Source of the DNA: Desulforudis sp.
Lineage (GTDB): Bacteria > Bacillota > Desulfotomaculia > Desulfotomaculales > Desulforudaceae
Assembly: GCA_003604975.1 (NCBI GenBank)
Contig: QZIR01000015.1
Location: forward strand, 1-47,682
Reading direction: 5' to 3'
Length of the DNA: 47,682 nucleotides
Each line of letters opens with the position of its first letter. The stretch's first letter is position 1. A program made the position numbers and the translations under genes. Positions 19,207-35,482 of this stretch are shown in pieces. The notes under the pieces are model-generated. The model saw only the letters and a program-made list of their open reading frames with translations, was not told the origin of the DNA and made no database searches.

Positions 19207-19941
19207 TCAGGAGATGAGCGCCAGGAAGAACAGGACGACGATCATTGAGACCTCCGAGTGGGCGCCCAGGAGGTCTCCCGTGACCCCGCCGTAGCGTACC
19301 CGGCACCACCGGCCGAAAACCAGGACCACCGCGGCGGACAACGCGAGTCCCGCGACACCAGCCCAGCCGGCCAGCGCACAGATAGCGAGGGCGAGCAGCC
19401 AGCCGACGGTCATCCCGGGCCAGCTTCCGCCACCGGTAACGGCGGCGCCGGTCCCGCCTTCGGGCCGGGCGTAGGGCTGGGACGCGGCCAAGTGTGCCGT
19501 GGCCTGGCGTGAAGCCACGAAGGCGACCGCGATCAGGACCCAGCCGCCCGCCAGACCCAGCAGAAACGAGTAGACCACCCACTTCAGGAGTAGGGCCAGG
19601 ACGATAGCCACCACCCCGAAGCTGCCCTGGCAGGAATCCTTCATTATCGCCAGCGCCCGCTGCCGGTCCCGTCCCGCCCCCAGGGAATCGGCCGTGTCGC
19701 CCAAACCGTCGGTGTGCAGGGCGCCGGTTAACACCATTTCCAGGACGAGCACCAGTGCCGCCGCTCCGGCCGCCCATCCCGGGGCCAGGCTTAAAAACCC
19801 CAGACCGGCCAGTGACACGGTAAGACCCAAGAGCGCCCCGACCAGGGGGAAGTAGGGCAACGAATCGGAGATCCGCTGGGCGTCCCGCCCCGGCACGGGC
19901 AGGATCGTCAGGGTACGCAGGGCCGTGATCAGACCGCGCAT
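19207..19941 (-). CDS. cobS: Adenosylcobinamide-GDP ribazoletransferase (cobalamin synthase)
   Basis: A 244-residue membrane enzyme that joins adenosylcobinamide-GDP to alpha-ribazole (phosphate), the last assembly step. Visible: ALRTLTILPVPGRD at the N-terminus, the catalytic acidic motif GALHTDGLGDTADSLGAG, and multiple membrane segments through to the C-terminus. It is the last gene of the cobalamin operon, 3 bases after cobT. Confidence 0.95.
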   Translation of the reverse strand: MRGLITALRTLTILPVPGRDAQRISDSLPYFPLVGALLGLTVSLAGLGFLSLAPGWAAGAAALVLVLEMVLTGALHTDGLGDTADSLGAGRDRQRALAIMKDSCQGSFGVVAIVLALLLKWVVYSFLLGLAGGWVLIAVAFVASRQATAHLAASQPYARPEGGTGAAVTGGGSWPGMTVGWLLALAICALAGWAGVAGLALSAAVVLVFGRWCRVRYGGVTGDLLGAHSEVSMIVVLFFLALIS

Positions 19942-19944
19942 CGC

Positions 19945-20994
19945 CTAGGCTCCCGCCTCGATCCCGAGGTCCTGGAAGGTGGCCATCTCGTTGTAGATCG
20001 CCACCGCGTCTTCAATAATCTGTATCCCGATGGCCGCCCCCGTACCCTCGCCCAGGCGCATGTCCAGATCAAGCATCGGGCGTAAGCCCTCACTTTCAAA
20101 GTACAGGCGGTGACCGGCCTCGGCCGAAAGGTGGGAAAAGAACAGGTAGTCCCGTACAGAAGGCGCCATGCGCATGGCCACCAGCGCGCCGGCGCCGGAG
20201 ATGAAGCCGTCCACCACCACGGGCAGCCCGTGGGCCGCCCCCCCTAGACACAGCCCGGCGATGCCTGCGATCTCAAGCCCCCCGACCGCAGCCAGTATGG
20301 AGAGCGGATCGTGCATCCGTTCCCGGTTTACGTCCAGGGCCTGCTTGACCACGGCCACCTTGCGCTTCAAGCCGGCTTCATCCAGCCCGGTCCCGCGCCC
20401 CGCGGTCTTCCCGGGATCATGCGGCAACAGCGCCGCATAGAGGGCGGCCGAAGGCGTAGTGTTGCCGATTCCCATTTCACCGGTGGCCAGCAGAGTACTG
20501 CCTTCGGCCCGGGCCTGTCCAGCCATCTCAATCCCTACTGACAGGGCCTGCCGCGCCTCCTCAAGGATCATCGCCGGTCCCCTGGCGATATTCGCCGCAC
20601 CCCGGCGCACGTTGCGCCCAATCAGGCCGGGCAAAGAGACCTCGTCCCGCATCCCCACGTCCACCACGCGTACCTCGGCCCCTGCGCGCCGGGCCAGGAC
20701 GTTGATCGCCGCGCCACCGCCAAGGAAGTTGTGGACCATCAGCGTAGTGACCTCCGGTGGGTAGGCTGAAACACCCTCCTCGTTCACGGCGTGGTCACCG
20801 ACAAACACGTAAATCCGGGGATTACGGACGGCGGGCTTTGTCTCTTCGGTTAGGGCCGCCATCCGTGCGGCGATCTCTTCCAGCACACCCAGGCTCCGCC
20901 GCGGTTTGGTCAGGTTATCCAGGTGGGCCTGGGCGGCCTCCATGCGCTCGTGTGGAACGGGACGAATACGTTGAATTACTTCATTAATGGACAT
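19945..20994 (-). CDS. cobT: Nicotinate-nucleotide--dimethylbenzimidazole phosphoribosyltransferase
   Basis: A 349-residue CobT. Conserved features: LTKPRRSLGVLEEIA, FVGDHAVNEEGVSAYP, LLATGEMGIGNTTPSAAL, and near the C-terminus LGEGTGAAIGIQI, which holds the catalytic glutamate. It activates the lower-ligand base to its alpha-ribotide. CobT accepts several bases, so the true lower ligand is not shown by sequence; no benzimidazole synthesis gene (bza) is present. It is 21 bases after cobU. Confidence 0.96.
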   Translation of the reverse strand: MSINEVIQRIRPVPHERMEAAQAHLDNLTKPRRSLGVLEEIAARMAALTEETKPAVRNPRIYVFVGDHAVNEEGVSAYPPEVTTLMVHNFLGGGAAINVLARRAGAEVRVVDVGMRDEVSLPGLIGRNVRRGAANIARGPAMILEEARQALSVGIEMAGQARAEGSTLLATGEMGIGNTTPSAALYAALLPHDPGKTAGRGTGLDEAGLKRKVAVVKQALDVNRERMHDPLSILAAVGGLEIAGIAGLCLGGAAHGLPVVVDGFISGAGALVAMRMAPSVRDYLFFSHLSAEAGHRLYFESEGLRPMLDLDMRLGEGTGAAIGIQIIEDAVAIYNEMATFQDLGIEAGA

Positions 20995-21573: not shown

Positions 21574-22539
21574 TTACTCAAACGCTGCCGCTAGTGCCAA
21601 CACTGTCACCACCGCGGCCGTGAAGAGCCAGGTGGTCATCCAGAGGAGGGTGACCGACTGTCGCAGCGCCTCCGGTCCAGGCGGCGCAAACTCCCCGCCC
21701 AGGTACGGCTTCTCCGAGACAACACCGCCGTAACTGGACGGTCCGCCCAGGCGGACGCCTAAGGCCCCGGCAAACAGCGCCTCTCCGTGACCGGCGTTCG
21801 GACTGGAATGCGCCAGGCGGTCACGCCATCCCACACGCCAGGCGTCACGGGCCGAAAAACCGGCTGCCTTGGCGGCTATCGGCACCAAAAAAAGGGCCAG
21901 CCTAGCCGGTAAAAAGGCGGTCAGGTCATCCAGGCGGGCACCGGCCCAGCCAAACTGACGGTAACGCTCGTTCTTGCACCCAACCATGGAATCAAGGGTG
22001 CTTGCGGCCTTGTAAACCCAGGCGCCCACGGCCCCGAAAAGGACGGTGTAGAAAAGGGGGCAGAGCACCCCGTCCACGGTGTTCTCACTCACCGTCTCCA
22101 CGGCGGCGCGCCGCACTCCCTGCTCATCCAGCCGGTCGGTGTCCCGGCCCACGATCATCGCCAGCCGTGCCCGCGCCCCCGGCAGGTCATTCCGCCGAAG
22201 GTGCCCGTCCACCGCCAGCGCTTCAGCGGCCAGGCTGCGTGGGGCGATCGCCAAATAGACCAGCAAAGTCTCCGTAGCCAATCTCCACCAGAGACCGCCT
22301 TGGTAGGCCAGGTGCAGCAGTCCCCAGGCCGAGAGCCCCGCAACGGCCACCACCCCTGCCGCCATGAGGGCGCCCGATAGCTTCAGGGGCAACGGCAGCA
22401 GGCGTGCCTTCTCACCGGCGCTAATCAGCAGGCCGATCAGCCGGACCGGGTGCGGCAGCCACCGCGGATCGCCCAGGAAGCGGTCGAGGACCACCGCCGC
22501 AAGGATTACGCCCGCCCTATAGGCCAAGTATTCCGTCAA
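21574..22539 (-). CDS. cbiB: Adenosylcobinamide-phosphate synthase
   Basis: A 321-residue membrane protein that attaches aminopropanol (phosphate) to adenosylcobyric acid. Typical blocks: LAAVVLDRFLGDPRWLPHPVRLIG at the start, IVGRDTDRLDEQGVRRA, VSENTVDGVLCPLFY, YKAASTLDSMVGCKNERY and AHSSPNAGHGEALFAGALGV. The open frame runs on upstream, but the family sequence begins at TTG 22539, which overlaps the end of cbiP by 23 bases; a GGGGTGG stretch precedes it. Confidence 0.94.
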   Translation of the reverse strand: MTEYLAYRAGVILAAVVLDRFLGDPRWLPHPVRLIGLLISAGEKARLLPLPLKLSGALMAAGVVAVAGLSAWGLLHLAYQGGLWWRLATETLLVYLAIAPRSLAAEALAVDGHLRRNDLPGARARLAMIVGRDTDRLDEQGVRRAAVETVSENTVDGVLCPLFYTVLFGAVGAWVYKAASTLDSMVGCKNERYRQFGWAGARLDDLTAFLPARLALFLVPIAAKAAGFSARDAWRVGWRDRLAHSSPNAGHGEALFAGALGVRLGGPSSYGGVVSEKPYLGGEFAPPGPEALRQSVTLLWMTTWLFTAAVVTVLALAAAFE

Positions 22540-24007
22540 GCCTGTCCACCCCGATCCTGGTCTCCAGAAGGTCGGCAACCCGTTCCAGGTCCTGTTGTCG
22601 GCGTACGGCATATCCGGTTTCGGTTGCGGCACGGGGCGGCAGCCCGGCCAGGCGGCGCATTTCGGCCACCCACTTTTCCCGGTAGCGGTCGTGGTCGAAG
22701 CATCCGTGCAGGTAAGTCCCGGCGACGAGACCGCTTTCCGAGGCACAGCCTTCGGGTAGCATCTCCCCGCCGTCTTCGCCCAACAAGAAGAGCGGGTTTC
22801 CCCCGAATACCCGGGAGACCCCCATGTGGATCTCGTAGCCCCTGACGGGCAGCCCGCCGGGTATACCCCAGGGACCGTCCGCCGTAACCCCGCGAACCTG
22901 GACGGTGCGCTTTTCTACTTCAAACCAGGTAGTGAGCGGCAAAAGGCCCAGTCCGGGAACCTCACGGGGCCCGTCCCGGATGGTCTCGCCTAGCATCTGG
23001 TAGCCGCCGCAGATTCCCAGTAGGGGCCTGCCACGGCCGACGAACTCCGCCAGGGCCAAGTCCAGCCCGTGCCGTCGCAGCCACTCCAAGTCGGACAGAG
23101 TCTCCTTGCTGCCGGGGATGATAACGACGTGGGCCGAGGCCAGGTCGGAGGGCCGGTCGACATAGCACACGGCCACCCCCTCCGTCGTCTCCAGAGGGAG
23201 GAAATCCGTGTAATTGGCTATTCGCGGCAGCCTAACCACGGCTACCACAAGGTCTCCGGGAGTGGGTGCCCCGCCGCGTCCGGTAAGGCCCACCGAGTCT
23301 TCTTCATCCAGGCAGAGGTCGGTCAGGTAGGGCAGAACCCCCAGAACCGGCCGGCCCGTTCGCTCCCGGACCAGTTCCAGTCCGGGTTCCAGGAGGCGTT
23401 CATCCCCGCGGAACTTGTTGATCACGTAACCGGCCACCAGATCTTGCTCCCGTTCCGCCAGCAGTCCCATCGTGCCCAGCAGGGCTGCAAACAGGCCCCC
23501 GCGTTCGATGTCGCCCACGATCAGGACGGGCGCCTGCGCGTAAAGCGCCACTTCCATATTGGCGATGTCGTGCCGCCGGATATTGATCTCCGCCGGGCTG
23601 CCCGCCCCTTCGGCAAACACAATATCGTAGCCATCCCGCAGCCGGTCCAGGGCTCCGGTCACCACCGGCCACAGCTCTTCCTTAAGGGCATAGTATTCGT
23701 GCACGGTGTAAACCCCGCGTGGCCTGCCAAGTACGACCACCTGGCTGCCCTTCTCTCCCGTGGGTTTTAGAAGGACCGGGTTCATGTCCACGTGGGGCGC
23801 CACCCCCGCCGCTTCGGCCTGGAGGGCCTGGGCGCGCCCGATCTCTCCCCCGGCCGGGGTGGCAAAGGAGTTTAAGGCCATGTTCTGACTCTTGAACGGC
23901 GCTACCGAAAAACCCCGGCGTGCGTACAGGCGGCAGAGACCGGCCACGACGAGGCTTTTCCCTGCCGAGGAGGCCGTCCCCTGGACCATCAGTACCCGCG
24001 CCGTCAT
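22517..24007 (-). CDS. cbiP: Cobyric acid synthase (adenosylcobyrinic acid a,c-diamide amidase)
   Basis: A 496-residue amidotransferase. The ATP-binding N-terminal domain opens with MVQGTASSAGKSLVVAGLCR and includes FKSQNMALNSF; the C-terminal glutaminase has the nucleophile cysteine in LLGICGGYQMLGE and the histidine in GTYLHGCFDHD. It amidates four side chains of adenosylcobyrinic diamide using glutamine. It overlaps the upstream aminotransferase gene by four bases. Confidence 0.96.
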   Translation of the reverse strand: MTARVLMVQGTASSAGKSLVVAGLCRLYARRGFSVAPFKSQNMALNSFATPAGGEIGRAQALQAEAAGVAPHVDMNPVLLKPTGEKGSQVVVLGRPRGVYTVHEYYALKEELWPVVTGALDRLRDGYDIVFAEGAGSPAEINIRRHDIANMEVALYAQAPVLIVGDIERGGLFAALLGTMGLLAEREQDLVAGYVINKFRGDERLLEPGLELVRERTGRPVLGVLPYLTDLCLDEEDSVGLTGRGGAPTPGDLVVAVVRLPRIANYTDFLPLETTEGVAVCYVDRPSDLASAHVVIIPGSKETLSDLEWLRRHGLDLALAEFVGRGRPLLGICGGYQMLGETIRDGPREVPGLGLLPLTTWFEVEKRTVQVRGVTADGPWGIPGGLPVRGYEIHMGVSRVFGGNPLFLLGEDGGEMLPEGCASESGLVAGTYLHGCFDHDRYREKWVAEMRRLAGLPPRAATETGYAVRRQQDLERVADLLETRIGVDRLDGILGL

Positions 24008-25044
24008 TGATACTCACCCCGAACAAACCCGGCCAGGGCCGCAATCAGCCGGTCATTCTCCGGCGCCGTGCGCAGCCCCATCCGGAAATGCCGCTCATTC
24101 AGACCAACAAAGGTGGAGGCGTTGCGTACCACCATCCCCTGTCGTTTCAGGCAGGTGTTCAGGGCTTCTACCGTCTTTCCCTCCGGGAGCAGACCGAGCA
24201 GGAAATTGGCCTCTCCGGGATAGACCCGGACACCGGTCTTGCACCGTAAGGCCCCAGCCACCCGTACCCGCTCGGCGCTGATAAATTGCCGGGTACGATC
24301 CGCGTAGGCCCGGTCGGCCAGCAGCAGACCGGTCAGGTGTTCGGCCAGGCCATTCACGCTCCAGGGATCCTTGGCCGCCACCAGCCTGGTCACATTTTCG
24401 CGCGCCGCGATCAGGTAGCCGAGACGCAGCCCGGGGATGGCGTAAAACTTGGTCAGGGAGCGCACCGCGATTACCCCCGGCCGTGGGGGCACCGCTGTTG
24501 AGGACGGCCCTGACGGGTCGCTAAAGGCCAGGAAGGACTCGTCCAAAACCCAGTGCACTCCGTCCGTGTTCAACAGGCTCTCCAACTGCCGCCGGTCTGG
24601 AAACTGCCCGGTGGGGTTGTTCGGGTAACCCAAGAAAACCATGTCTCCCGCCACCGGTCGCAGCGCCTCCCACATCGGCTCAAAGCGCTCACCCACCACC
24701 TGATAGGGCAGGCGCATAACCGGGACGCTACAGGATTCCGCCGCCGCCCGGTATTCGGAGTAGCAGGGCTCGACCACCCAGACCCGGCCCGGGCGCAGCA
24801 CCCTGACCAGCAGGCTGATCAGCTCGGTGGCGCCATTTCCGACAAGCACCTCCGCGAAATCCAGGCCAAGCCGGGCAGCAATGGCTCGGCGGGCCGGTTC
24901 CGCGTCCAGGGACGGGTAGCGCGTCAGTAGCTGCAGGGCGTGGGCCAGGGCCGCGGCGACGCAGGCCGGCGGCCCGAGCGGGTTGATGCTTACGCTGAAG
25001 TCCAGGAGCCCTTCCGTGTAGCGCCCGCCGTGGTCCGTGTTCAT
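24004..25044 (-). CDS. cobD: Threonine-phosphate decarboxylase / histidinol-phosphate aminotransferase-like (CobC/CobD)
   Basis: A 346-residue fold-type I PLP enzyme. FSVSINPLGPP, VGNGATELISLL, FLGYPNNPTGQ and the PLP lysine motif SLTKFYAIPGLRLGY match threonine-phosphate decarboxylase, which makes (R)-1-amino-2-propanol phosphate for the nucleotide loop. The symbol follows Salmonella usage (CobC in Pseudomonas). Placed between cbiA and cbiP with four-base overlaps on both sides, which excludes a histidine-pathway role. Confidence 0.93.
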   Translation of the reverse strand: MNTDHGGRYTEGLLDFSVSINPLGPPACVAAALAHALQLLTRYPSLDAEPARRAIAARLGLDFAEVLVGNGATELISLLVRVLRPGRVWVVEPCYSEYRAAAESCSVPVMRLPYQVVGERFEPMWEALRPVAGDMVFLGYPNNPTGQFPDRRQLESLLNTDGVHWVLDESFLAFSDPSGPSSTAVPPRPGVIAVRSLTKFYAIPGLRLGYLIAARENVTRLVAAKDPWSVNGLAEHLTGLLLADRAYADRTRQFISAERVRVAGALRCKTGVRVYPGEANFLLGLLPEGKTVEALNTCLKRQGMVVRNASTFVGLNERHFRMGLRTAPENDRLIAALAGFVRGEYQ

Positions 25045-26444
25045 GCGCTTCCCCCCAGCAGACGCCGCAGCACGTGCGGCGCCGAAGCAAAATGCAGGTG
25101 CAGGTAGGAGGCGAAGACCGATCCTGCCTGCCAGCCTTCCCGGCGCACCATTGTCCCGGCCGCCTGGTGAACGGTCAGGCAGGTCTCACCCCCCGGTAGG
25201 GTTTCCGCTTCAGAATAATGGAACAGGTGGGCACGCACCTCTTCCCCGCAGCCGAGGATCCCCGAATCGGTCTCCGCCCGCGCCATCACGTAACCGAGAG
25301 ACAGCCTTCGCCCGGCCATCCTGGTACGTACGGGAAGCAGACCGGCCATTTGATGATCGTCCCCGTCCAGGTCCGCCAGCCCCTTCCCCAGGTACATCAG
25401 GCCCCCGCACTCGCCGTAGATCCTGCCCCCGCTTTGAGCAAACGCCCGGACAGAGTTCAGCATCGACCGGTTCGCCGTCAGGGTGCGGGCGTGCAGTTCG
25501 GGATAGCCGCCGCCGAAGTAAAGCAGTGTGCATCCGGGAGGGACGCCCTGGTCTCGCAGGGGGCTGAAGAACACCAGTTCCGCACCGCTATGGCGCATCT
25601 GGTCCAGGTTGTCCGCGTATAGGAAATTGAAGGCCTCATCCAGGGCCACCCCGACCCGACAGACTACACGGTCCGGGACGGGGGCAAAAAGCCGTTTTGT
25701 TGCCGTGGGTAGCGGCGGAGCCTCCGCAGCCAGCCGCAGGAGTAACTCCACGTGGACATACCGCTCGATACTCGAGGCCAGCCGGTCATAAACCGCTTCC
25801 CAGGACTGCTCTACTCCCGTGTGGAGTCCCAGGTGCCGTTCCGGGATCACCAGCTCCTCTCCCCGGGGGATCGCCCCGAGCACCGGAATACCACAGCGTT
25901 TTGTTATGGCCTGTTCAATCAGCGAGGCGTGCCGGTGGGAGCCGACCCGGTTCAGGATCAGGCCGGCAATCCGTACCGTCGGGTCAAAGCTCTGGAAACC
26001 AAGCACCGTCGCCGCCGCGCTCACTCCCTGGTGGGCAACGTCGACCACCAGGATCACCGGAAGTGCCAACAATCCCGCCATCTCCGCACTGGAAGCGCGT
26101 AAGGAACCGTCGGCCAATCCGTCAAAAAGACCCATCACGCCTTCCACTATGGAGATGTCCGCGCCCGTCGCCGCCCGCTGAAAAAGCTCCTGCGAGGCGG
26201 CGGAACCGATCAGCCAGCCGTCCAGGTTGCGGGAGGTCCGCCCGGCCGCCCGAGTGTGGTGACCGGGGTCGATGTAGTCGGGCCCGACCTTGAAGGGCTG
26301 CACCGCAAGACCACGGCGGGACAGGGCACGCAGAAGCCCGAGTGTGACCGTGGTTTTGCCCTGGCCGCTGGACGGCGCGGCGATCAGCAACCGCGGGTAA
26401 TGTTGTATCCTCTCGCTTCTCACCTCTAACATCTTACTTCTCAC
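25041..26444 (-). CDS. cbiA: Cobyrinic acid a,c-diamide synthase
   Basis: A 467-residue glutamine amidotransferase. The N-terminal PRLLIAAPSSGQGKTTVTLG binds ATP; VGPDYIDPGHH and NLDGWLI follow; the glutaminase domain has the cysteine in YGECGGLMYLG and the histidine in FASYLHLHF. It amidates carboxylates a and c of cobyrinic acid. The start is uncertain by a few codons: the 5' end lies in a purine-rich low-complexity run and ATG 26444, ATG 26432 and a nearby GTG are all possible. Confidence 0.95.
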   Translation of the reverse strand: MRSKMLEVRSERIQHYPRLLIAAPSSGQGKTTVTLGLLRALSRRGLAVQPFKVGPDYIDPGHHTRAAGRTSRNLDGWLIGSAASQELFQRAATGADISIVEGVMGLFDGLADGSLRASSAEMAGLLALPVILVVDVAHQGVSAAATVLGFQSFDPTVRIAGLILNRVGSHRHASLIEQAITKRCGIPVLGAIPRGEELVIPERHLGLHTGVEQSWEAVYDRLASSIERYVHVELLLRLAAEAPPLPTATKRLFAPVPDRVVCRVGVALDEAFNFLYADNLDQMRHSGAELVFFSPLRDQGVPPGCTLLYFGGGYPELHARTLTANRSMLNSVRAFAQSGGRIYGECGGLMYLGKGLADLDGDDHQMAGLLPVRTRMAGRRLSLGYVMARAETDSGILGCGEEVRAHLFHYSEAETLPGGETCLTVHQAAGTMVRREGWQAGSVFASYLHLHFASAPHVLRRLLGGSA

Positions 26445-26450
26445 TTCCTA
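26400..26450. repeat. Low-complexity purine run at the cbiH-cbiA junction
   Basis: On the minus strand the junction consists of repeated AGAAGTGAGAAGTAAG-, AGAGGTGAGAAGCGAGAGG-like words. It spans the end of cbiH and the first codons of cbiA, so it adds variable residues to the start of CbiA. It looks like slippage-type expansion. Confidence 0.5.
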
Positions 26451-27165
26451 AACAGTACCCCCGAGGCGTGATCATGTAACCCCGCCAGACGAAGGTTTGG
26501 CTGGAGCCCACCACCAGCAGGGTGAGCATATCCGCGTCGTCAAGGGTGAGTTCCCGCAGGGTGATCACACGCCGTTCCTGCCCCTCGCGGAAGGCGTTGC
26601 GTACGATTCCCACCGGTGTATCGGACGGGCGGGTTTCCCGCAGGATCGCCAGCGCCGCCTCGAAGGGCGCCGTCCGCGTCCGGGAGCGGACGTTGTAGAG
26701 GGCCAGCACGAAGTCGGCCTCCGCTGCCGCCCGTACCCGCCGTTCAATCAGCTCAATGGGCGTGAGCAGGTCAGACAGGGAGATCACCGCATGGTCGTGG
26801 GCCAGGGGGGCACCCAGGAGCGCGGATGCCGCCAGGGACGCGGTCACCCCCGGTACCACCCGGAAGGGCAGAACCAGGTCGCGCTGGGCCAGTTCCTCCA
26901 GCACCAGGCCGGCCAGCCCGTAGACACCGGCATCCCCGCTGGAGACCACACAGACCCTCCGCCCCTCTTCCGCCGCCGCCACGGCGGCCCGTACACGCTC
27001 CACCTCGCGCCGCATACCGCTGGCAATCAGTTGCTTACCGGCCAGTTGGTCACGGATCAAATCCAGATACAGGCCGTACCCGGCCACCACGTCCGCTTCC
27101 GCCAGCGCCTCCCGGGCGGCCGGTGTTAAGTGGACCGCGGCACCCGGCCCGATCCCGGCGACCAC
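26434..27165 (-). CDS. cbiH: Cobalt-precorrin-3 C17-methyltransferase (CbiH/CobJ type)
   Basis: A 243-residue SAM methyltransferase of the tetrapyrrole methylase fold. It starts VVAGIGPGAAVHLTPAA and has VAGYGLYLDLI, VVSSGDAGVYGLAGLVLE, VVPGVTASLAASALLGAPLA and a C-terminal LLVVGSSQTF. It carries out the C17 methylation with ring contraction. The family start maps to GTG 27165 behind GAGG, overlapping the end of cbiG by 40 bases. Confidence 0.93.
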   Translation of the reverse strand: MVAGIGPGAAVHLTPAAREALAEADVVAGYGLYLDLIRDQLAGKQLIASGMRREVERVRAAVAAAEEGRRVCVVSSGDAGVYGLAGLVLEELAQRDLVLPFRVVPGVTASLAASALLGAPLAHDHAVISLSDLLTPIELIERRVRAAAEADFVLALYNVRSRTRTAPFEAALAILRETRPSDTPVGIVRNAFREGQERRVITLRELTLDDADMLTLLVVGSSQTFVWRGYMITPRGYCLGSEK

Positions 27166-27962
27166 AAGCGATCCTCGGCCAGAGCTACCGTCACCTCGTC
27201 CGCCACCAGGCGCGGCAGGATGATTCGCCCGTTGTGTACTGCCAGAAAGGCACATGGTTCCGCCACTCCTCCCACGTCAAAATACTTGCGCGCACACCGT
27301 GATTCCCCGAACAGGCCGTCGACACTCCGGATGGCCTCGCGGTTGAAAACCCGGAGCCCGATACCCAACTCCGTACAGACCTGGTGCAGACCGGGTTCGT
27401 GGGCCTTAAAATCGGCCGTGGCTGCTACCCGGATCGACTCCTTACCCCGGCCGACCGCGGCCAGTCCCCTTTCGACGGCCTCCATTATCCGGGGGGCTTC
27501 CACGCCCCGCCGGCAGCCCAGGCCGACGGCCAGCGTCCGACGCCCCTCGCTGCCGGTGGTCACCACCGGCTCGGCGCCGACCACTGCCGCCACGCGGTAG
27601 GCCAGGGCGTTCGCGCCGCCCTCGTGCCCAGCCAGCAGGCTGACGGCATAGCGGGCCGCGGTGTCCAGGACAACCACCGGGGGGTCAACCCGCTTGTCCA
27701 CGGGCAGGCCCGACAGGAGACGGACGGCGATACCCACCGCCATCACCAGCACCAGGCCCTGTCCGGCCCGGAACAGGCGAGTGACCAGTTCGCCAGGCGG
27801 CTCCGTGTAACCCACGTTCTGACCACCGTCAGGCGGCAATTCCCGGCCGCTGATCGGCGCCGGAAGGTACAGCGTGGCGGAAAGTCTCCCGGCCACCGCT
27901 GCTCCGGCTGTGTACCCGGCCTCGTTGATTAACACCACGGCCAGCGGCCGGCTACCGGTCAT
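27126..27962 (-). CDS. cbiG: Cobalt-precorrin-5A hydrolase
   Basis: A 278-residue CbiG, which opens the delta-lactone of cobalt-precorrin-5A and releases acetaldehyde. Recognised by the N-terminal domain ending in GLVLVMAVGIAVRLL, the central VLDTAARYAVSLLAGHEGGA plus NALA, and the C-terminal VGLGCRRGVE domain with GEAAC-like ending EPCAFLA. It overlaps cbiF by 11 bases. Confidence 0.93.
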   Translation of the reverse strand: MTGSRPLAVVLINEAGYTAGAAVAGRLSATLYLPAPISGRELPPDGGQNVGYTEPPGELVTRLFRAGQGLVLVMAVGIAVRLLSGLPVDKRVDPPVVVLDTAARYAVSLLAGHEGGANALAYRVAAVVGAEPVVTTGSEGRRTLAVGLGCRRGVEAPRIMEAVERGLAAVGRGKESIRVAATADFKAHEPGLHQVCTELGIGLRVFNREAIRSVDGLFGESRCARKYFDVGGVAEPCAFLAVHNGRIILPRLVADEVTVALAEDRLWSPGSGRVPRST

Positions 27963-28695
27963 TCTGCACCCGCTCCTCGGAATAAAGGTAGCTCTCCCGG
28001 CCGTCCTGGTCCAGGAAGGACCCTACCAAGATCAGGGCGTGCCGCCTCAGACCGGCCTTCCGCACGGTAGCGGCCAGCTCGGACAGCCGGCAGTGCAGGA
28101 TCTGCTGGTCCGGCCAGGTGGCACGGTAGACCACCGCCACCGGACAATCCGGACCGTAAGCGGGGAGTAACTCGGCCTCCACCCCTTCCGTAGCCCCCGC
28201 GCTCAGGTAAAGGACCATAGCCGCTCCAGCCTCCGCCAGTCGCGGCAGGCTCTCGGTTTCCGGCACGGGGGTACGGCCCGACCGCCGCGTAAGGATCAGG
28301 GTTTGCGTTCCCCCGGGCAGGGTATACTCCAGGCCCAGTGCCGCCGCCGCCGCGAAGCAGGCGCTCACCCCCGGCACCAATTCATAGGGAATACCAAGGC
28401 GGCGGAGCCCGCGGATCTGCTCCGCAATTGCCCCGTAGAGGGAGGGGTCCCCGGTATGCAGCCGTGCCACGTCCAGCCCGGCGGCATTAGCCTCTGCCAT
28501 CAGGGACAGCTGTTTATCCAGGTCCAGTCCGCTGGAATCATGCCTGGCCGCGTCGGCCCGTGCCCAGCGCAGGATTTCCGGGTCAACCAGGCTGCCCGCG
28601 TAGATCACCACCGGGCAGCGTTCCAACAGTCGCCGGCCCTTTACCGTGATCAGTTCCGGATCACCCGGCCCGGCCCCGATAAAATAGACGGTCAC
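27952..28695 (-). CDS. cbiF: Cobalt-precorrin-4 C11-methyltransferase
   Basis: A 247-residue SAM methyltransferase. MTVYFIGAGPGDPELITVKG, VIYAGSLVDPEIL, RLHTGDPSLYGAIAEQI, ELVPGVSACFAAAAALG and PGGTQTLILTRR are the CbiF/CobM pattern. Start and stop overlap neighbours by 4 and 11 bases, part of the tightly packed corrin-ring block. Confidence 0.96.
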   Translation of the reverse strand: MTVYFIGAGPGDPELITVKGRRLLERCPVVIYAGSLVDPEILRWARADAARHDSSGLDLDKQLSLMAEANAAGLDVARLHTGDPSLYGAIAEQIRGLRRLGIPYELVPGVSACFAAAAALGLEYTLPGGTQTLILTRRSGRTPVPETESLPRLAEAGAAMVLYLSAGATEGVEAELLPAYGPDCPVAVVYRATWPDQQILHCRLSELAATVRKAGLRRHALILVGSFLDQDGRESYLYSEERVQNDR

Positions 28696-29420
28696 CGACC
28701 GTCACCTCCTCGTCTGCGTACCAGAATCACTGAGAGGTAACCCCTTTCGTTATCGAGCAGTGACGCCAGATCCCGCGTGATGAACTCGCCGTCCTGGGAC
28801 ACGTGACTGGCAAAAACGGCCTGCCCGTCCAGCCCCATTTCCTGCAGCAAGCGCACCACCGCCGGGAGCTGCTTGGCTACCTTCATCAGCACCACCGTGT
28901 CGTACTCCTCCAGTGCCCGCCGCACCGGACCCAGGTCTCCGCGCGGCACCGGCACGACCGCGATCCGCTCGTCCTTCTCCCCCAGCGAGAAGCTGGTCGC
29001 CGCCGCCGCAGCCGCGAAACTGGTTACCCCCGGCACCGAGTGGATGACGGACTCTGGCAGCGTCTTTCGGAGTTCCTGCAACACATAGCAATAAGTGCTG
29101 TAGGTGAGACAGTCCCCCAGAGTCAGAAAAACCACCCGTTCCCCGCGTCCCACCCGGTCCGCGATTTCAGCGGCCGCCGCCGCCCAGTACGGCGCCAGCT
29201 CCCTTTCGTTGCGGCGCATGGGGAATTCGAACTGGAGCACCGGCTTGTCTCCCACGAACGGCCGCGCGATCTCCAGGGCCAAGCTCTCACCCGCGATGCT
29301 GGACTTGGGCACTACGATGCAGTCCGCTTCCTGAATCAGGCGCCGGGCCTTCAGCGTAACCAGCTCCGGATCCCCCGGACCAAGCCCGAGGCCCCAGAAC
29401 GTACCCTGTCTTCCATCCAT
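28692..29420 (-). CDS. cbiL: Cobalt-factor II / precorrin-2 C20-methyltransferase
   Basis: A 242-residue SAM methyltransferase: FWGLGLGPGDPELVTLKARR, then ADCIVVPKSS, FLTLGDCLTYSTYCYVLQEL, SVPGVTSFAAAAAATSFSL and TVVLMKV are the CbiL/CobI features. It adds the C20 methyl group, the first ring methylation after cobalt insertion. Separated from cbiE by six bases. Confidence 0.95.
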   Translation of the reverse strand: MDGRQGTFWGLGLGPGDPELVTLKARRLIQEADCIVVPKSSIAGESLALEIARPFVGDKPVLQFEFPMRRNERELAPYWAAAAAEIADRVGRGERVVFLTLGDCLTYSTYCYVLQELRKTLPESVIHSVPGVTSFAAAAAATSFSLGEKDERIAVVPVPRGDLGPVRRALEEYDTVVLMKVAKQLPAVVRLLQEMGLDGQAVFASHVSQDGEFITRDLASLLDNERGYLSVILVRRRGGDGR

Positions 29421-29426
29421 TTCGTG

Positions 29427-30071
29427 TTAATCCTCCGTCAGTATCACTAGGCTCCGTCCCGACCCCTGCGCCCAGAGGGCAAGATTGGCCACCCGGCCGC
29501 TGATCCGGTATTCCGAGGAGCGCCCGAGGTCGGACAGTACATGCACGGTCCGGTAACCCGCCACGTCGGCAATCTGCTCCAGCACCCGCCGGGGCGTCCA
29601 GGTAGGCGAACAGAGTAACGCCCCCACGGGGGCAACGCTAAACTGCTGCAAAATGGCCGGGACAAGCTCCTCACGAACGCCATGCAGGCTGAAGAACCGT
29701 GCCTGTTCCCAGGGCAGGGCCAGGTGCGCAAAGGCCAGCTGCGTCGAGCTGATCCCCGGCACAATCTGGACCCGGTCCCGTCCCAGAAGGCGTATTACCG
29801 GCTGGGCCAGGCTGTGCAACCCCGGATCGCCGGTGACCAGCAGCACTACCCTGTAGGCCTCAATCTTAGAGCCGACCAGATCGACCACCTGCCAGGCGTC
29901 GGCGCCCACCACCACCCGCTGGGTTTTCGCCCCCGGGAAGAGGTCGAGCAGAAACTGCGGCCCGCACAGCAGTTCCGCCTTCTGTACGGCCAGGCCCGCC
30001 TGTACGGTCAAGTATTCCCGTCCGCCCGGCCCGCAGCCCACGATGGTCAGTTTCCCCCGTACCGGGTTCAG
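29427..30071 (-). CDS. cbiE: Cobalt-precorrin-7 C5-methyltransferase, CbiE domain only
   Basis: A SAM methyltransferase of the CbiE type: TIVGCGPGGREYLTVQA, LLCGPQFLLDLFPG, VLLVTGDPGLHSLAQPV, QIVPGISSTQLAFAHLAL and FFSLHG. There is no CbiT part, neither fused nor following. The start is odd: a GTG at 30041 would cut off the first beta strand; the only complete version begins at a CTG (30071-30069) overlapping the cbiD stop, giving 214 residues. Function itself is clear. Confidence 0.88.
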   Translation of the reverse strand: MNPVRGKLTIVGCGPGGREYLTVQAGLAVQKAELLCGPQFLLDLFPGAKTQRVVVGADAWQVVDLVGSKIEAYRVVLLVTGDPGLHSLAQPVIRLLGRDRVQIVPGISSTQLAFAHLALPWEQARFFSLHGVREELVPAILQQFSVAPVGALLCSPTWTPRRVLEQIADVAGYRTVHVLSDLGRSSEYRISGRVANLALWAQGSGRSLVILTED

Positions 30072-31183
30072 CGGGCCTCACCGACGATGTTTCCGGCAAA
30101 GTCGCAGAGATGGACCGACACTTCCACTTCCCCTTTCAATCGTTCCCGTACCAGTTCCCGGATCCGCCCGGCCAGCATCGCGGGCAGATCGGCGTGGCCA
30201 CGCTGGATTACGGCCTGCTGAATGGCCTCCACGGTCGGGAGTACCTTTAACTCCTGGACAAGGGCCCGGGGCAGGCCGAACCCGGCGAAACATTCCACCA
30301 CGGCGGCGTTCGCCATCGGAGCATACTTGCTGTGCGTCTGCCATTCCCCGTTTAGGACCTTAGCCAGCTTCCCCGGGTGGCCCACCAGGGTGATCGCGGT
30401 AAAGCCGCGTTCGTACGCCTTGTCCAGCATGAACCCGAGAAAATCGCTGATCTCTACAATCTGGGCCTCCGCCGGCGGCGGCTGAAGGCGGCGCGCCGCG
30501 CGGTGCCCGATATTGCCCGGCACCAGGCACACCGTCCGGTAACCGGCCGCCCGGACGATATCCAGGAGCGGCGGCAGGGAGCGGCGCAGGGCGTCCAGGC
30601 TGCGCGGCTCGACATAACCGGTGGTACCCAGGATCGAGATCCCACCGATAATGCCCAACCGCCCGTTGAAGGTACGACTAGCCAGCTCCACCCCGCCCGG
30701 CACGATAATCGTGACCTTCCAACCCGCTCCGTCGGGAACCAGGTCGGCCAGCGCCGCGGCGATCATCCCCCGTGGTACGGGGTTGATCGCCGCCTCTCCC
30801 ACCGGTACCGCCAGGCCCGGCAAGGTGACCCGCCCTACGCCCTCGCCCCCGTCCAGGCTGACTCCGGAAGAGGCCGCGAATTCCACGCAGGCGTGGATGG
30901 CCGCGCCGTTGGTTACGTCCGGGTCATCCCCCGCGTCCTTGATCACGCAGCAGCGGGCCGCCGTTTCACTCCGGCAGACTCCCTGCACCGGCAGGACAAC
31001 CTCATCCCCGACCGGAAGCCGGATCGTAACCCGATCCGGGCAACGCCTCTGCGTGAGCCAGAGGGCCGCACCCCGGGCGGCCGCGGCGGCACAGATTCCC
31101 GTGGTATAACCGCGCCGCAACTGCCGTTGGGCCTCCGCCGGGGGGCCCTGTTCTTTCACCCTCTCGGCCATCCCGACCACCAC
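30068..31183 (-). CDS. cbiD: Cobalt-precorrin-5B C1-methyltransferase
   Basis: A 371-residue CbiD, marker of the anaerobic pathway. Conserved: LRRGYTTGICAAAAARGA, KDAGDDPDVTNGA, INPVPRGMI, PGGVELASRTFNGRLGI followed by GGISILGTTGYVEP, and LVGHPGKLAKVLNG. It methylates C1. ATG at about 31171 (MAERVKEQ) or GTG 31183 may be the start. It stands six bases after cbiX. Confidence 0.96.
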   Translation of the reverse strand: MVVGMAERVKEQGPPAEAQRQLRRGYTTGICAAAAARGAALWLTQRRCPDRVTIRLPVGDEVVLPVQGVCRSETAARCCVIKDAGDDPDVTNGAAIHACVEFAASSGVSLDGGEGVGRVTLPGLAVPVGEAAINPVPRGMIAAALADLVPDGAGWKVTIIVPGGVELASRTFNGRLGIIGGISILGTTGYVEPRSLDALRRSLPPLLDIVRAAGYRTVCLVPGNIGHRAARRLQPPPAEAQIVEISDFLGFMLDKAYERGFTAITLVGHPGKLAKVLNGEWQTHSKYAPMANAAVVECFAGFGLPRALVQELKVLPTVEAIQQAVIQRGHADLPAMLAGRIRELVRERLKGEVEVSVHLCDFAGNIVGEAR

Positions 31184-31189
31184 CCTTGC

Positions 31190-31648
31190 CTATTTGTCCG
31201 GGATTACCTCCACAAACTCCCCCTGGCCGGGCGGCACCGGGTAGTTCGCCCGGTCAGGCACCTTGATCTCCCGCACATCCGGGAAACCCAACGATTCATC
31301 CACGCGTCGCGCCAGGAGCTCGGCCAGGACATCGTCATAGCCCAAGTGCTTTCCAAAAACGATCCGTGTCCGGGGATACTCGGCCGCCAGCTTCTGCAGT
31401 TCCTCCGGAATGTCCACCAGGATGTGCAGTCCCGAATGCAGGAAGTAGGGGATCACCATAATCTCCGTGGCACCCTCCGTCACGCAGGCCTCCAGGGTCT
31501 CGGGCAGGTGCGGCCCCAGCCGGGACAGGAAACAGACCTTAACCAGGGATACCCCGATCAGTTCACGCAACCGGTCGGCCAGCCCTTCCATTTCCCAGGC
31601 CGCTCCCGCCACACGGCTGCCGTGACCCAGTAAAATAATCGCACGCAT
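31190..31648 (-). CDS. cbiX: Sirohydrochlorin cobaltochelatase, short form (CbiX-S)
   Basis: A 152-residue single-domain chelatase that inserts cobalt into sirohydrochlorin. The catalytic histidines are in LLGHGSR and in FLHSGLHILVDIPEEL. The protein is about 25 residues longer than the shortest CbiX-S because of a C-terminal tail (DVREIKVPDRANYPVPPGQ) of unknown role. The ATG at 31648 has GAAGGAG 8-9 bases upstream; the longer open frame is spurious. Confidence 0.92.
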   Translation of the reverse strand: MRAIILLGHGSRVAGAAWEMEGLADRLRELIGVSLVKVCFLSRLGPHLPETLEACVTEGATEIMVIPYFLHSGLHILVDIPEELQKLAAEYPRTRIVFGKHLGYDDVLAELLARRVDESLGFPDVREIKVPDRANYPVPPGQGEFVEVIPDK

Positions 31649-31685: not shown

Positions 31686-33290
31686 TTACCCAGATTCACC
31701 GTTTCCGCTACCCAGGATGGCCAGGGCATGCAGGGCCGCCACCGCCAGGCTGCTTCCCCCGCGCCGGCCGGCCACACAGATCCAGGGCACGTCTAATTCC
31801 ATCAGTTCGTCCTTACTCTCCTCCACATGCACAAACCCCACCGGCATTCCCACGACCAGGGCGGGACGGACCTCACCCTCACGGATCATCCGGTTTAGTT
31901 CCAGCAGGGCCACCGGGGCGTTGCCGATCAGAACGATCCCCCCGTCCAGGAACGGGCGCGCCTGCCGCACGGCAAAAAGGGAACGGGGCAGCCCTGCCGC
32001 CTGCGCCTCCTCCGCCACCGCCGGGTCGGCCACCAGGCAATGGACGTCCCCGGACGTGTAGCTGGCGTAAACCCGGTTTAACCGGGCCAAGGAAAGCCCG
32101 GCCCGAATCATATTCGCGTCCGCGTAGATGGGCGCGCCCCGTCGCAGGGCCTCAACCCCTGCTTCGACGGCGCCCGGACTGAAACGTACGGCATCCACCA
32201 ACCCAAAGTCGGCCGTGGTGTGGATCAGCCGCCGCACCACCGCCCACTCCGCCGCCCGAAAGGTGTGGGCCGGTGCCTCAGCATCAATCCGGCGGAAGGA
32301 CTCGGCCTCGATCGCGGCGCCCGACATCGGTCGTTGGTAGAGGGTATAGATCCCCGGTGGTGCACCGGTCGGTGTCGTCTCACCAGCATCCTTGCCCACC
32401 TCAGGACCACTCAGTCGGCCGTTCTGGCACCGGTACCCCTGCTCCAGGGCCTCCAGGAGTTCATATCGGGTAAGCGGGGGTTGACCGTCCACCGCCAGAC
32501 CACGGCGACAGGCATCCGTAAAGACGTCCAGCACCCACGGCCGGGCCAGATTGGCCGAGTCCAGGAGCGCGTCGTCCCGAAAAACGGCAGCCGGCGGACC
32601 CTCCCCGACCAGACGTCCTCCGGCCAACACCAGGCACCAATCGGCCAGGGTCCAGGCCAGGTCAACGTCATGCGTGGAGAAGATCACGGTGGTGCCGTTG
32701 TCCCGCAGCCGCCGCAGCAGATCGGCCATCTGCACCGCCCCCCGCGGGTCCAGCCCCGCTGTCGGTTCGTCGCAGATCAGGACTTTCGGTTCCATCGCCA
32801 ACACCCCGGCTAGGGCAACCCGCTTTTTCTCACCGTGGGACAGGGCGTGGGTGGGACGCCCGGCCAGCTCCGCGAGACCCACCGTAGCCAGTACCTGCTC
32901 TACGCGCTGGCGTACCTCGTTTTCCGGAAGACCAAGGTTCAAGGGGCCAAAAGAGATGTCCTGGTAGACACTGGCGGAAAACAGCTGAGCGTCGGGGTCC
33001 TGAAAGACCATCCCCACCTCACGGCGCAGGGCTTTCAGCGCCCGATGGTCGTAGGACAGGGGGCGACCCTGGAAAGATACCGTGCCAGCGGTCGGCCGGT
33101 GCACACCGACCAGGTGCATAAAAAGGGTCGTCTTACCGGCCCCGTTGGCGCCCAGCACGGTAATGGTCCGGCCCCGACGCAGGGACACGGTTACGCCCCG
33201 TAGCCCCGTCGTTCCGTCGGCATAGGTGAAATTCAGATCCCGTAACTCGAATACGGTGTCGTCCAAAGATGCACTCGCTCCCTCAAACAC
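31686..33290 (-). CDS. Fusion of cobalt importer ATPase CbiO with precorrin-8X methylmutase CbiC
   Basis: A 534-residue protein in one uninterrupted frame. Residues 12-285 are an ECF-type ATPase: Walker A GANGAGKT (47-54), VFQDPDAQLFSASVYQDI, signature SHGEKK (151-156), Walker B LICDEPTAGLD and switch H207. Residues 286-312 are a Gly/Pro/Thr-rich linker. Residues 313-534 are CbiC: QRPMSGAAIEAESFRRID, catalytic His H357 in RRLIHTTADF, VDAVRFSPGA, YADANMIRAG, GNAPVALLEL and VGMPVGFVHVEESK. CbiO powers cobalt import with CbiMNQ; CbiC moves the C11 methyl to C12 to give cobyrinic acid. The gene sits between cbiQ and cbiX; no separate cbiO or cbiC exists in the operon, so both roles rest on this protein. 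Confidence 0.92.
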   Translation of the reverse strand: MFEGASASLDDTVFELRDLNFTYADGTTGLRGVTVSLRRGRTITVLGANGAGKTTLFMHLVGVHRPTAGTVSFQGRPLSYDHRALKALRREVGMVFQDPDAQLFSASVYQDISFGPLNLGLPENEVRQRVEQVLATVGLAELAGRPTHALSHGEKKRVALAGVLAMEPKVLICDEPTAGLDPRGAVQMADLLRRLRDNGTTVIFSTHDVDLAWTLADWCLVLAGGRLVGEGPPAAVFRDDALLDSANLARPWVLDVFTDACRRGLAVDGQPPLTRYELLEALEQGYRCQNGRLSGPEVGKDAGETTPTGAPPGIYTLYQRPMSGAAIEAESFRRIDAEAPAHTFRAAEWAVVRRLIHTTADFGLVDAVRFSPGAVEAGVEALRRGAPIYADANMIRAGLSLARLNRVYASYTSGDVHCLVADPAVAEEAQAAGLPRSLFAVRQARPFLDGGIVLIGNAPVALLELNRMIREGEVRPALVVGMPVGFVHVEESKDELMELDVPWICVAGRRGGSSLAVAALHALAILGSGNGESG

Positions 33291-33359: not shown

Positions 33360-34121
33360 TCAGACGGTTACCGCCAGGAACAACAGGCTCCCCCCCAGGG
33401 CCGCCGCTAACACCACGTTTCCGGGAGACAGCCGGCGTGGTGCTTCCAGCACATTGAGACCGCCGTCGTACCCCCGCAGGGAGAGAGCAACGAAAAGTTC
33501 CCGGGCCCGCTGATGCGCGCGCAGCAGGAGGTTGGCCAGCAGGGCACCCCACGCCCGGTAGCTTGTCCCCAGGCTGGTATACCCGAGGCGCAGGGCCTGG
33601 GCCCGGCGCATTTCCAGGGCCGTCTCCAAGAGTACAAAGACAAAGCGGTACACCAAGGCCAGAATCTCCAGGAAGAGAGCTGGTACCCGGCCGCGCCGCA
33701 GCAGCGCGAGGACGTCCGGCAGCGGCGTGGACAGGGCTAGGAAATACAGGCAGGAAACCCCACCCAGCGTCCGGACGAGAATATCCCGGGCGACGGCCAA
33801 CCCGGCCTGGGTAAACCCAAGATACAACCCGTAAACCTCAAACCAGCGCCCTTCCGGTGTCTGACCGGTAGTCACCGTGAGCGCCACAGCCGGCAGCCCG
33901 GCCGCGAGAAACACCACCGGAACCAGGAGCATCCGTGTATAGACAGGCCAGGGTGTCCGCCCCGCCGCTACAGTTAAGGCGGCCATCAACCCAAACACCA
34001 GCAGGGGCACCCACCAGGTCCGTGCCACCAGGCAGGCCGCCAGCGCCAGGACCACCAGCAGACCCTTTTCCGCCGGGTGCCGTACCGCCAGCGGACTGGC
34101 ATAGGCAATCCGGTCAATCAA
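33360..34121 (-). CDS. cbiQ: Cobalt ECF transporter transmembrane protein CbiQ
   Basis: A 253-residue membrane protein with about five to six hydrophobic segments. The C-terminal coupling motifs are visible: EMRRAQALRLGY and ARELFVALSLRGYDG match the two A-R-G helices by which T components grip the ATPase. I set the start at TTG 34121 ([15 protein letters not shown]), with AAGGGG 9 bases upstream, overlapping the cbiN stop as TTGA; the longer frame reads through cbiN out of frame. Confidence 0.92.
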   Translation of the reverse strand: MIDRIAYASPLAVRHPAEKGLLVVLALAACLVARTWWVPLLVFGLMAALTVAAGRTPWPVYTRMLLVPVVFLAAGLPAVALTVTTGQTPEGRWFEVYGLYLGFTQAGLAVARDILVRTLGGVSCLYFLALSTPLPDVLALLRRGRVPALFLEILALVYRFVFVLLETALEMRRAQALRLGYTSLGTSYRAWGALLANLLLRAHQRARELFVALSLRGYDGGLNVLEAPRRLSPGNVVLAAALGGSLLFLAVTV

Positions 34122-34411
34122 CGGGACGTACCCCTTTTCCGTCCGAAGTAGTAACCGATAAATCCCGCGCCCAGTGCTGACTGCAGGGCAAACAGCAGGC
34201 TCTCCACCTCGCCTGACGGCGGCGCCCATATCGGTTCGGCCCAGGGCTCATAATCGGGCCGGATCTCCGCAATCAGTTCTTTCGCCTGGTTATCGACCCC
34301 TACGAACATCTCGGCCCCCGGGCTGCCGGAACCGGACACCAGGAAAAGGGGCAGAGCCGCCAGAAGGATGACCCCCAGTACAAGCAAAAGGTTACCGCGC
34401 AGGATTTTCAA
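34118..34411 (-). CDS. cbiN: Cobalt transport protein CbiN
   Basis: A 97-residue protein with two transmembrane helices (residues 7-27 and about 70-90) and an external loop with [20 protein letters not shown] and YEPWAEPIW, the CbiN signature. It helps load cobalt into CbiM. It overlaps cbiM by 20 bases and cbiQ by four. Confidence 0.95.
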
Positions 34412-35081
34412 GCATTACACCTCCAGGGAGCACCGACAGGTCCTCCAGTTCTTTGCGGCTGTATTTCTGAAGACCATTAAATATGATCACCGTCAAGAGT
34501 CCGGAGCTTATGGCCAACGGGATCTGGGTCACGGCGAAGACCGCCCCGAACTTGGCAAAGGACGCGGCAAAACCGCCGACCGGGTCCGGAAAGGCCAGGG
34601 CCAGCTGGAATGACGTCGTTACATAGGTCATCAGGTCGCCTCCGGCCGCTGCCGTGAACACCGACACCGTAAAGGGCAGCCGTAAAAACTGACAGACGCG
34701 GAAGAGCGCAAAAGCGGCGAAGGGACCGACTACCGCCATGGAAAAGGTATTGGCGCCGAGTGTGGTAATCCCCCCGTGGGCCAATAGCAGCGCCTGCAAG
34801 ACAAGGACCACACAGCCCACAACGGCCATAACGGACGGGCCAAACAGAATTGTACCCAATCCGATCCCCGTAGGATGGGAACTGCTGCCCGTAACCGATG
34901 GGATCTTAAGTGCAGACAGGACAAAGGTGAAGGCGCCCGCCAGGCCCAGGAGCATCTTGGCCTCCGGGTTGGCACGGACTTTCCGGCTTATAGAGTACAG
35001 ACCGTAGGTCACAAAAGGCGCCGATGCTGCCGTCCAGCCGACAGCATGGCTGATGGGTAGGAATCCTTCCATAATATGCAC
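34392..35081 (-). CDS. cbiM: Cobalt ECF transporter substrate-specific protein CbiM
   Basis: A 229-residue membrane protein, the cobalt-binding S component. The N-terminal MHIMEGFLP holds the metal-binding His2 and the amino-terminal ligand; [18 protein letters not shown] with its histidine and [18 protein letters not shown] are fully conserved. It is the first gene after the riboswitch. Confidence 0.96.
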
Positions 35082-35181: not shown

Positions 35182-35241
35182 ACGTATTCAATCCTGGTAT
35201 AACATTCACACCCCCTTATTCCGCGAGGCGGGTATGGGTTC

Positions 35242-35420
35242 CACTCTGGGCAGGTCTTCTGACTCCCGGATCATCCTACCGGTCACACCTTCCCGGCGGC
35301 CTGTCCACCAGTGGTTGGTCGTGACTTTCGTTCCCGGTCACAGCGGCGGGTCCGTACCGGATTCGCACCGGTTTCCCTATTCTCCCCACCGAACCGGGAG
35401 GTCCGGGGGCACCCAGAATG
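35242..35420 (-). ncRNA. Adenosylcobalamin (B12) riboswitch
   Basis: On the minus strand the aptamer reads GGGAAACCGGTGCGAATCC, GACCCGCCGCTGTGACCGGG, then an ACCACTGG-containing B12 box region, CCGCCGGGAAGG and finally GAGTCAGAAGACCTGCCC, the standard order of the cobalamin riboswitch. The closing stem P1 is CATTCTGGG (35420-35412) with CCCAGAGTG (35250-35242), one G-U pair. It controls the 18-gene operon downstream. Confidence 0.95.
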
Positions 35421-35482
35421 TTTTTCCTATTTAATTAGAGAATACCCGGTAATTGCCGGTTACCCTCCCAAGAATATACTTC

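Follow-up and report, generated by a model that had tools for sequence, protein, structure and literature searches.

CbiC acts at the end of corrin ring construction, rearranging a methyl group on an intermediate that in the anaerobic pathway already carries cobalt. CbiC/CobH enzymes (PDB 1v9c, 2afr, 1f2v) are usually stand-alone proteins of about 210–230 aa, and CobH is dimeric (PMC8123684). On the import side, CbiO is the ATPase of the CbiMNQO cobalt ECF transporters (PDB 5x3x, 5x40; 3gfo), in which CbiM, CbiQ and CbiO occur at 1:1:2, i.e. two CbiO per complex (PMC7689651), and the CbiO chains listed from the PDB have 275–292 residues with no C-terminal enzyme. The present study analyzes a locus at which the two are joined, in a stretch of 47,682 nucleotides from Desulforudis sp. 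(contig QZIR01000015.1; hereafter the window). The fused protein is like CbiO of these transporters in fold, motifs, family model and cbiMNQ neighbours but carries an enzyme at its C-terminus; its CbiC half is like CbiC/CobH in fold and catalytic histidine but is joined to an ABC ATPase and is phylogenetically foreign to the host order. Taken as a whole, we hold it quite probable that this is a real bifunctional fusion of single origin and mixed ancestry, and that it reflects adjacency and operon compaction rather than a hand-off of cobalt.

Architecture and operon context of the fused chain

The fusion frame (Table 1) runs unbroken for 534 codons from a GTG at 33290. An alternative TTG at 33266 would give 526 codons and has GAGGGAG upstream at a long 11-nt spacing, and either codon may be the true start. 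Pfam placed ABC_tran at residues 30–178 (E=4.8e-33) and CbiC at residues 327–524 (E=2.5e-69), the latter covering profile positions 2–194 of 196 and thus a full-length domain, and the CbiO half passed the NCBIfam cbiO model TIGR01166 (262.6 bits; cut-off 211.8). All ABC motifs of the CbiO half were intact (Walker A GANGAGKTT, signature LSHGE, Walker B CDEPTAGLD and H-loop STHD), and the CbiC half contained an HTTADF histidine that aligned to the IHATADF motif of 1v9c and was invariant across five fusions; the motifs as a set were likewise invariant in these five save for single substitutions adjoining Walker B and the CbiC histidine. The AlphaFold model, built from an 80-row alignment, had a mean pLDDT of 92.8, with two confident domains and a poor stretch at 285–295, and its pTM of 0.62 leaves the relative orientation of the halves undefined. 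By Foldseek the CbiO half matched CbiO 5x40 (target-normalised TM 0.93) and 5x3x, and the CbiC half matched CbiC 2afr/1v9c with TM about 0.9. A sequence-only reading of the window had described one uninterrupted frame leading from a CbiO with Walker A, Walker B, signature and switch histidine through a linker of 27 residues to a full CbiC with its catalytic histidine; frame, domains and motifs were all borne out, as was the presence of a linker, which is nearer 29 residues here. The chain is one genuine polypeptide, putatively bifunctional, with a CbiO ATPase and a CbiC methylmutase on a disordered tether, and both halves are probably active. It contains no CbiX domain, the N-terminal half being ABC_tran and CbiX a separate gene (Pfam, NCBIfam), so it lacks the N-terminal CbiX of the CbiX-CbiC bifunctional enzyme (NF004449/PRK05782). 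There was also no Pfam match in the fusion to the MerR DNA-binding domain of a CoaR-type sensor.

Table 1. Features of the cobalamin operon in the window (positions of the whole stretch)
Feature	Coordinates	Strand	Evidence or remark
Cobalamin riboswitch (RF00174), heading the operon	35232..35431	-	121.3 bits
cbiM	34392..35081	-	Pfam, NCBIfam; only CbiM of the window genome
cbiN	34118..34411	-	Pfam, NCBIfam
cbiQ	33360..34229	-	Pfam, NCBIfam
CbiO-CbiC fusion ORF	31686..33290	-	ORF reading, Pfam, NCBIfam, alignment, AlphaFold, Foldseek
CbiO half (cobalt ECF transporter ATPase)	32439..33263	-	Pfam/NCBIfam, Foldseek to 5x40/5x3x, tree
Flexible linker, ~29 aa	32352..32438	-	Alignment, low pLDDT 285-295, raised dN/dS
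CbiC half (precorrin-8X / cobalt-precorrin-8 methylmutase)	31689..32351	-	Pfam, PDB alignments, Foldseek, tree
Conserved His codon of CbiC half	32220-32222	-	
cbiX, short cobalt chelatase	31190..31648	-	Pfam, locus comparison; closest to Thermodesulfobacteriota copies in loci compared
cbiD	30068..31183	-	Pfam, NCBIfam
cbiE, tetrapyrrole methylase	29427..30041	-	Named by sequence similarity and gene order
cbiL, tetrapyrrole methylase	28692..29420	-	Named by sequence similarity and gene order
cbiF	27952..28695	-	
cbiG	27126..27962	-	
cbiH	26434..27255	-	
cbiA	25041..26444	-	
Aminotransferase-fold protein, cobD/cobC-like	24004..25044	-	
cbiP	22517..24007	-	
cbiB	21574..22746	-	Pfam match starts only at residue 82, hence a true start probably near 22500
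cobT	19945..20994	-	
cobS	19207..19941	-	

The CbiO half is encoded beside cbiM, cbiN and cbiQ, and the operon reads riboswitch, M-N-Q-(O.C)-X-D-E-L-F-G-H-A-aminotransferase-P-B, with T-S at some distance after. The order from M to H was common to all five fusion genomes; the stretches compared for G001 and G004 stop short of the operon's final genes. None of the five has a CbiC other than the fused one. The rest of the ring pathway was present in these genomes, with two ring steps lacking a recognised enzyme: none of the five whole genomes yielded a CbiJ, or a CbiT scoring above cut-off. Unrecognised replacements are likely, possibly non-orthologous ones, and an alternative CbiJ has been mentioned for Dehalobacter (PMC4285132). 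The operon of G004 contains a further fusion: CbiE and CbiL share an ORF of 463 aa, in which there are two tetrapyrrole methylase domains (L122:8224-9612). Just upstream of the riboswitch in the window, the minus strand at 35634-39911 encodes a 1426-aa PEP synthase-like protein, two stretches of which match the PEP-binding domain; its long C-terminal extension matches nothing in Pfam.

Conservation and continuity of the frame

The architecture was sought in 113 genomes of the order, as the earlier reading had proposed, and was seen in five: the window genome (G000, a draft of 75 contigs), G001, G002 (a single contig of 2,349,476 bp), G004 and G012. These make up a small set of Desulforudis-related Firmicutes from the deep subsurface. 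Pairwise identity among the five fusions was 68–84%, and their linkers were 24, 29, 40, 41 and 86 aa long, all in frame. Estimates of dN/dS were 0.15–0.21 for CbiO, 0.11–0.24 for CbiC and, where estimable and based on 14–41 codons, 0.30–1.49 for the linker; both domains are under strong purifying selection and selection on the linker is relaxed. In the linker of the G004 fusion there was a 7-bp tandem repeat, GGTGGTC, in 7.6 copies (L122:12197-12249), and gain or loss of copies would throw the CbiC half out of frame and so silence it, which could make it phase-variable.

Patterns of this kind bear on two explanations that would make the fusion less than it seems. An artefact of assembly or sequencing might be entertained given the draft state of the window genome, but the frame is open in four further genomes, one of them the 2.35-Mb single contig, at the sequence divergence given above; a local frameshift, which the earlier reading had named among the things that would undo the fusion, is thereby ruled out, as is an assembly error, and the probability of such an artefact is practically nil. 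A second explanation is that two proteins result in practice, with an internal start or proteolysis of the linker freeing CbiC. An ATG or GTG immediately 5′ of CbiC is indeed conserved in frame in all five genomes, and the linker is predicted by AlphaFold to be disordered, but no Shine-Dalgarno sequence precedes the boundary codon in any of the five, and linker length always preserves the frame. The earlier reading had named a ribosome binding site used near residue 313 as evidence that would count against the fusion, and no such site was seen. Moreover, there is no stop codon between the halves, so that full-length fusion would be made regardless, and the most an internal start could do is supply some short CbiC alongside it. 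We regard this second explanation as improbable. Sequencing error and split translation are unlikely because in-frame linkers occur in four other genomes and purifying selection acts on both domains and is relaxed between them.

Ancestry of the two halves and proposed movement between hosts

The fusion arose once, from halves that do not share a history. On the CbiC side, the tree united the five fusions in one clade (100/100), which was nested in a larger clade (100/100) that includes Thermodesulfobacteriota, Verrucomicrobiota, Nitrospinota and Acidobacteriota, among others, and lay apart from CbiC of the same order. In the CbiO tree the five were again monophyletic but fell within a Firmicutes CbiO clade. 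The neighbouring CbiX also looks acquired, with 56% identity to non-Firmicutes loci versus 38% to same-order loci; most other operon genes were without a clear donor signal, and the imported block may be limited to C-X. Gene order in the non-Firmicutes loci was A-C-X-(M-Q-O)-D-E-L-F-G-H, or A-C-X-D-E-L-F-G-H in L073 and L090, while same-order Firmicutes loci end in X-C; in Geobacter metallireducens the order is cbiM-cbiQ-cbiO-cbiX-cobH-cbiD (PMC2700814). From the placement of CbiC in the tree, the similarity of CbiX and these gene orders, we infer that the fusion formed where cbiMNQO meets an acquired C-X(-D...) block. A block starting cbiC-cbiX-cbiD, or at least cbiC-cbiX, would have come from a Thermodesulfobacteriota-like source and been inserted directly behind the resident cbiMNQO, where its first gene would have become joined to cbiO, and the fused operon may subsequently have spread among Desulfotomaculia-type hosts.

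Comparison of RpoB with the fusions is relevant to this last step. G002 and G004 had 94% identity in RpoB and 68% in the fusions, G002 and G012 had 82% and 84%, and G000 and G004 had 81% in both. Because RpoB and fusion identities disagree, the sequences suggest that the fused operon moved horizontally between hosts. The sampled flanks of the G012 operon were unlike those of G002 or G004, but the contig carrying the G012 operon may still be mis-binned.

Other cbiO fusions and the possible role of the tether

Fusions of CbiO with a second corrin enzyme were found elsewhere in the Firmicutes. In a phylum sample of 299 genomes, of which 129 bear CbiD, reading of long frames identified CbiO-CbiD fusions in 10 of the 129 CbiD-bearing genomes (G159 is among the carriers), with one further example, L128, within the order; the loci are L124, L125, L128, L136–L139 and L142–L145, of which L124, L125 and L128 had been CbiO-CbiC candidates before they turned out to be CbiO-CbiD. 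On the CbiO tree, the CbiO-CbiD fusions require three or more separate placements if supported branches are counted, and five under parsimony, with gains indistinguishable from losses. There were no CbiO-CbiC fusions outside this lineage among 127 CbiC-bearing genomes of a phylum sample, nor any save L060 in 47 CbiC loci from GTDB contigs, scanned with two peptide patterns that reach close relatives only. The earlier reading knew of no characterised example, and our full-text literature search, with most subscription journals outside its scope, likewise found nothing relevant on a published CbiO-CbiC or CbiO-CbiD fusion. Long frames at L008, L009, L127 and L130 were rejected as CbiO fusions since they were N-terminal read-through of an open frame. 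Several other joined genes were encountered: CbiD with a divergent ABC ATPase, perhaps a decaying CbiO, that the CbiO profile missed at 1e-30 (L140:1068-2963, G146); CbiD joined to the end of a VTT-domain (TVP38-like) membrane protein (L141:510-2375, G117); and a CbiH-CbiC fusion of 592 aa (L131:1439-3214, G131).

Most likely, the CbiO-CbiC fusion reflects gene adjacency within the B12 operon and is not a device for delivering cobalt to an enzyme. Adjacency is favoured over a specific pairing of import with methylmutase because CbiO is also fused to CbiD and because, in the loci whose gene order was examined, the fused enzyme is the one whose gene stands first among the corrin genes behind cbiO, a position that CbiD holds in the Firmicutes loci. 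It appears that cbiO fuses with whichever corrin gene comes next, a pattern drawn from some loci rather than a census. In the working we propose, two CbiO halves would pair beneath CbiQ/CbiM and their ATP hydrolysis would power cobalt import, while the two tethered CbiC halves would form the usual CbiC/CobH dimer, a 2:2 symmetry that is plausible given two CbiO per CbiMQO and the CobH dimer. The CbiC halves would perform the late methyl shift giving cobyrinic acid, in parallel with import and with no cobalt passed between; the metal is already in the ring when CbiC acts, which makes a hand-off from importer to CbiC unlikely. The immediate benefit would probably be operon compaction and fixed 1:1 expression, with membrane-bound CbiC as a by-product. 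The earlier reading had tied import to ring synthesis by tethering at the membrane. This stands to the extent that CbiC would be tied to CbiO in a membrane complex if assembly is like that of other CbiMNQO; the purpose it implied is weakened by the late position of CbiC, by the CbiD fusions and by the way partners follow gene order.

Membrane tethering or feedback is nevertheless possible. One alternative, which we consider less probable but worth serious attention, is that a corrin enzyme on the importer, whether CbiC or CbiD, places ring synthesis at the membrane near incoming cobalt and that this proximity keeps the fusion. Retention across several divergent hosts and the independent, recurrent fusion of CbiO with two different corrin enzymes count against adjacency, and tethering itself could have been selected; but in the gene orders examined cbiO is joined to the corrin gene that comes directly behind it and not to that of CbiX, the chelatase that uses the metal, both CbiC and CbiD act after cobalt insertion, the linker is conserved in neither sequence nor length, and relatives exist in which cbiO and cbiD are adjacent and even overlap unfused (L135). 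It is doubtful, more so than proximity, that the CbiC half also responds to a corrin product or intermediate by slowing the CbiO ATPase, matching cobalt import to demand. Such coupling has a parallel in the cobalt sensor CoaR, with a CbiC/CobH-like tetrapyrrole-binding domain and a response that needs predicted tetrapyrrole-binding residues (PMC7689651), and a MerR regulator-precorrin isomerase protein was among the PDB matches to the CbiC domain. However, the catalytic histidine and sole-copy status of the CbiC half indicate that its enzymatic role dominates, a linker this long and this poorly conserved would be ill suited to carrying an allosteric signal, and the CbiD fusions do not fit such logic. 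A broader version, in which tethered CbiC or CbiD is both a regulatory and a spatial module, occupancy by corrin intermediates tuning the importer ATPase and CbiO being a platform to which the corrin pathway has docked repeatedly, strikes us as a long shot; if true, it would mean direct product feedback on cobalt import in bacteria.

With adjacency as the preferred reading, the locus still places the motor of a metal importer and a late enzyme of the pathway using that metal in one chain. Its evolutionary record is unusually clear and points to a fusion at the join of a resident transporter with B12 genes gained by horizontal transfer, apparently carried between hosts. CbiO-CbiC and the independent CbiO-CbiD fusions are a natural construct set for studying membrane organisation of B12 synthesis, usually a matter of speculation. 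If tethering is irrelevant, they are a warning against inferring function from Rosetta-stone fusions that track gene order.

Among known systems, the CbiO-CbiD fusions are similar in that a cobalt importer ATPase carries a corrin-ring enzyme at its C-terminus, but the enzyme is the C1-methyltransferase CbiD and the origins are separate from that of CbiO-CbiC. In CbiX-CbiC (NF004449) and CbiH-CbiC fusions (L131–L134 for the two kinds together), CbiC is likewise joined to a neighbouring B12 gene, although the partner is another corrin enzyme and not a transporter subunit. CoaR, a MerR-type cobalt sensor, shares with the present fusion the physical joining of a CbiC-like domain to a cobalt-handling protein, but it is a transcription factor controlling export, and its CbiC-like domain is described as tetrapyrrole-binding rather than catalytic (PMC7689651).
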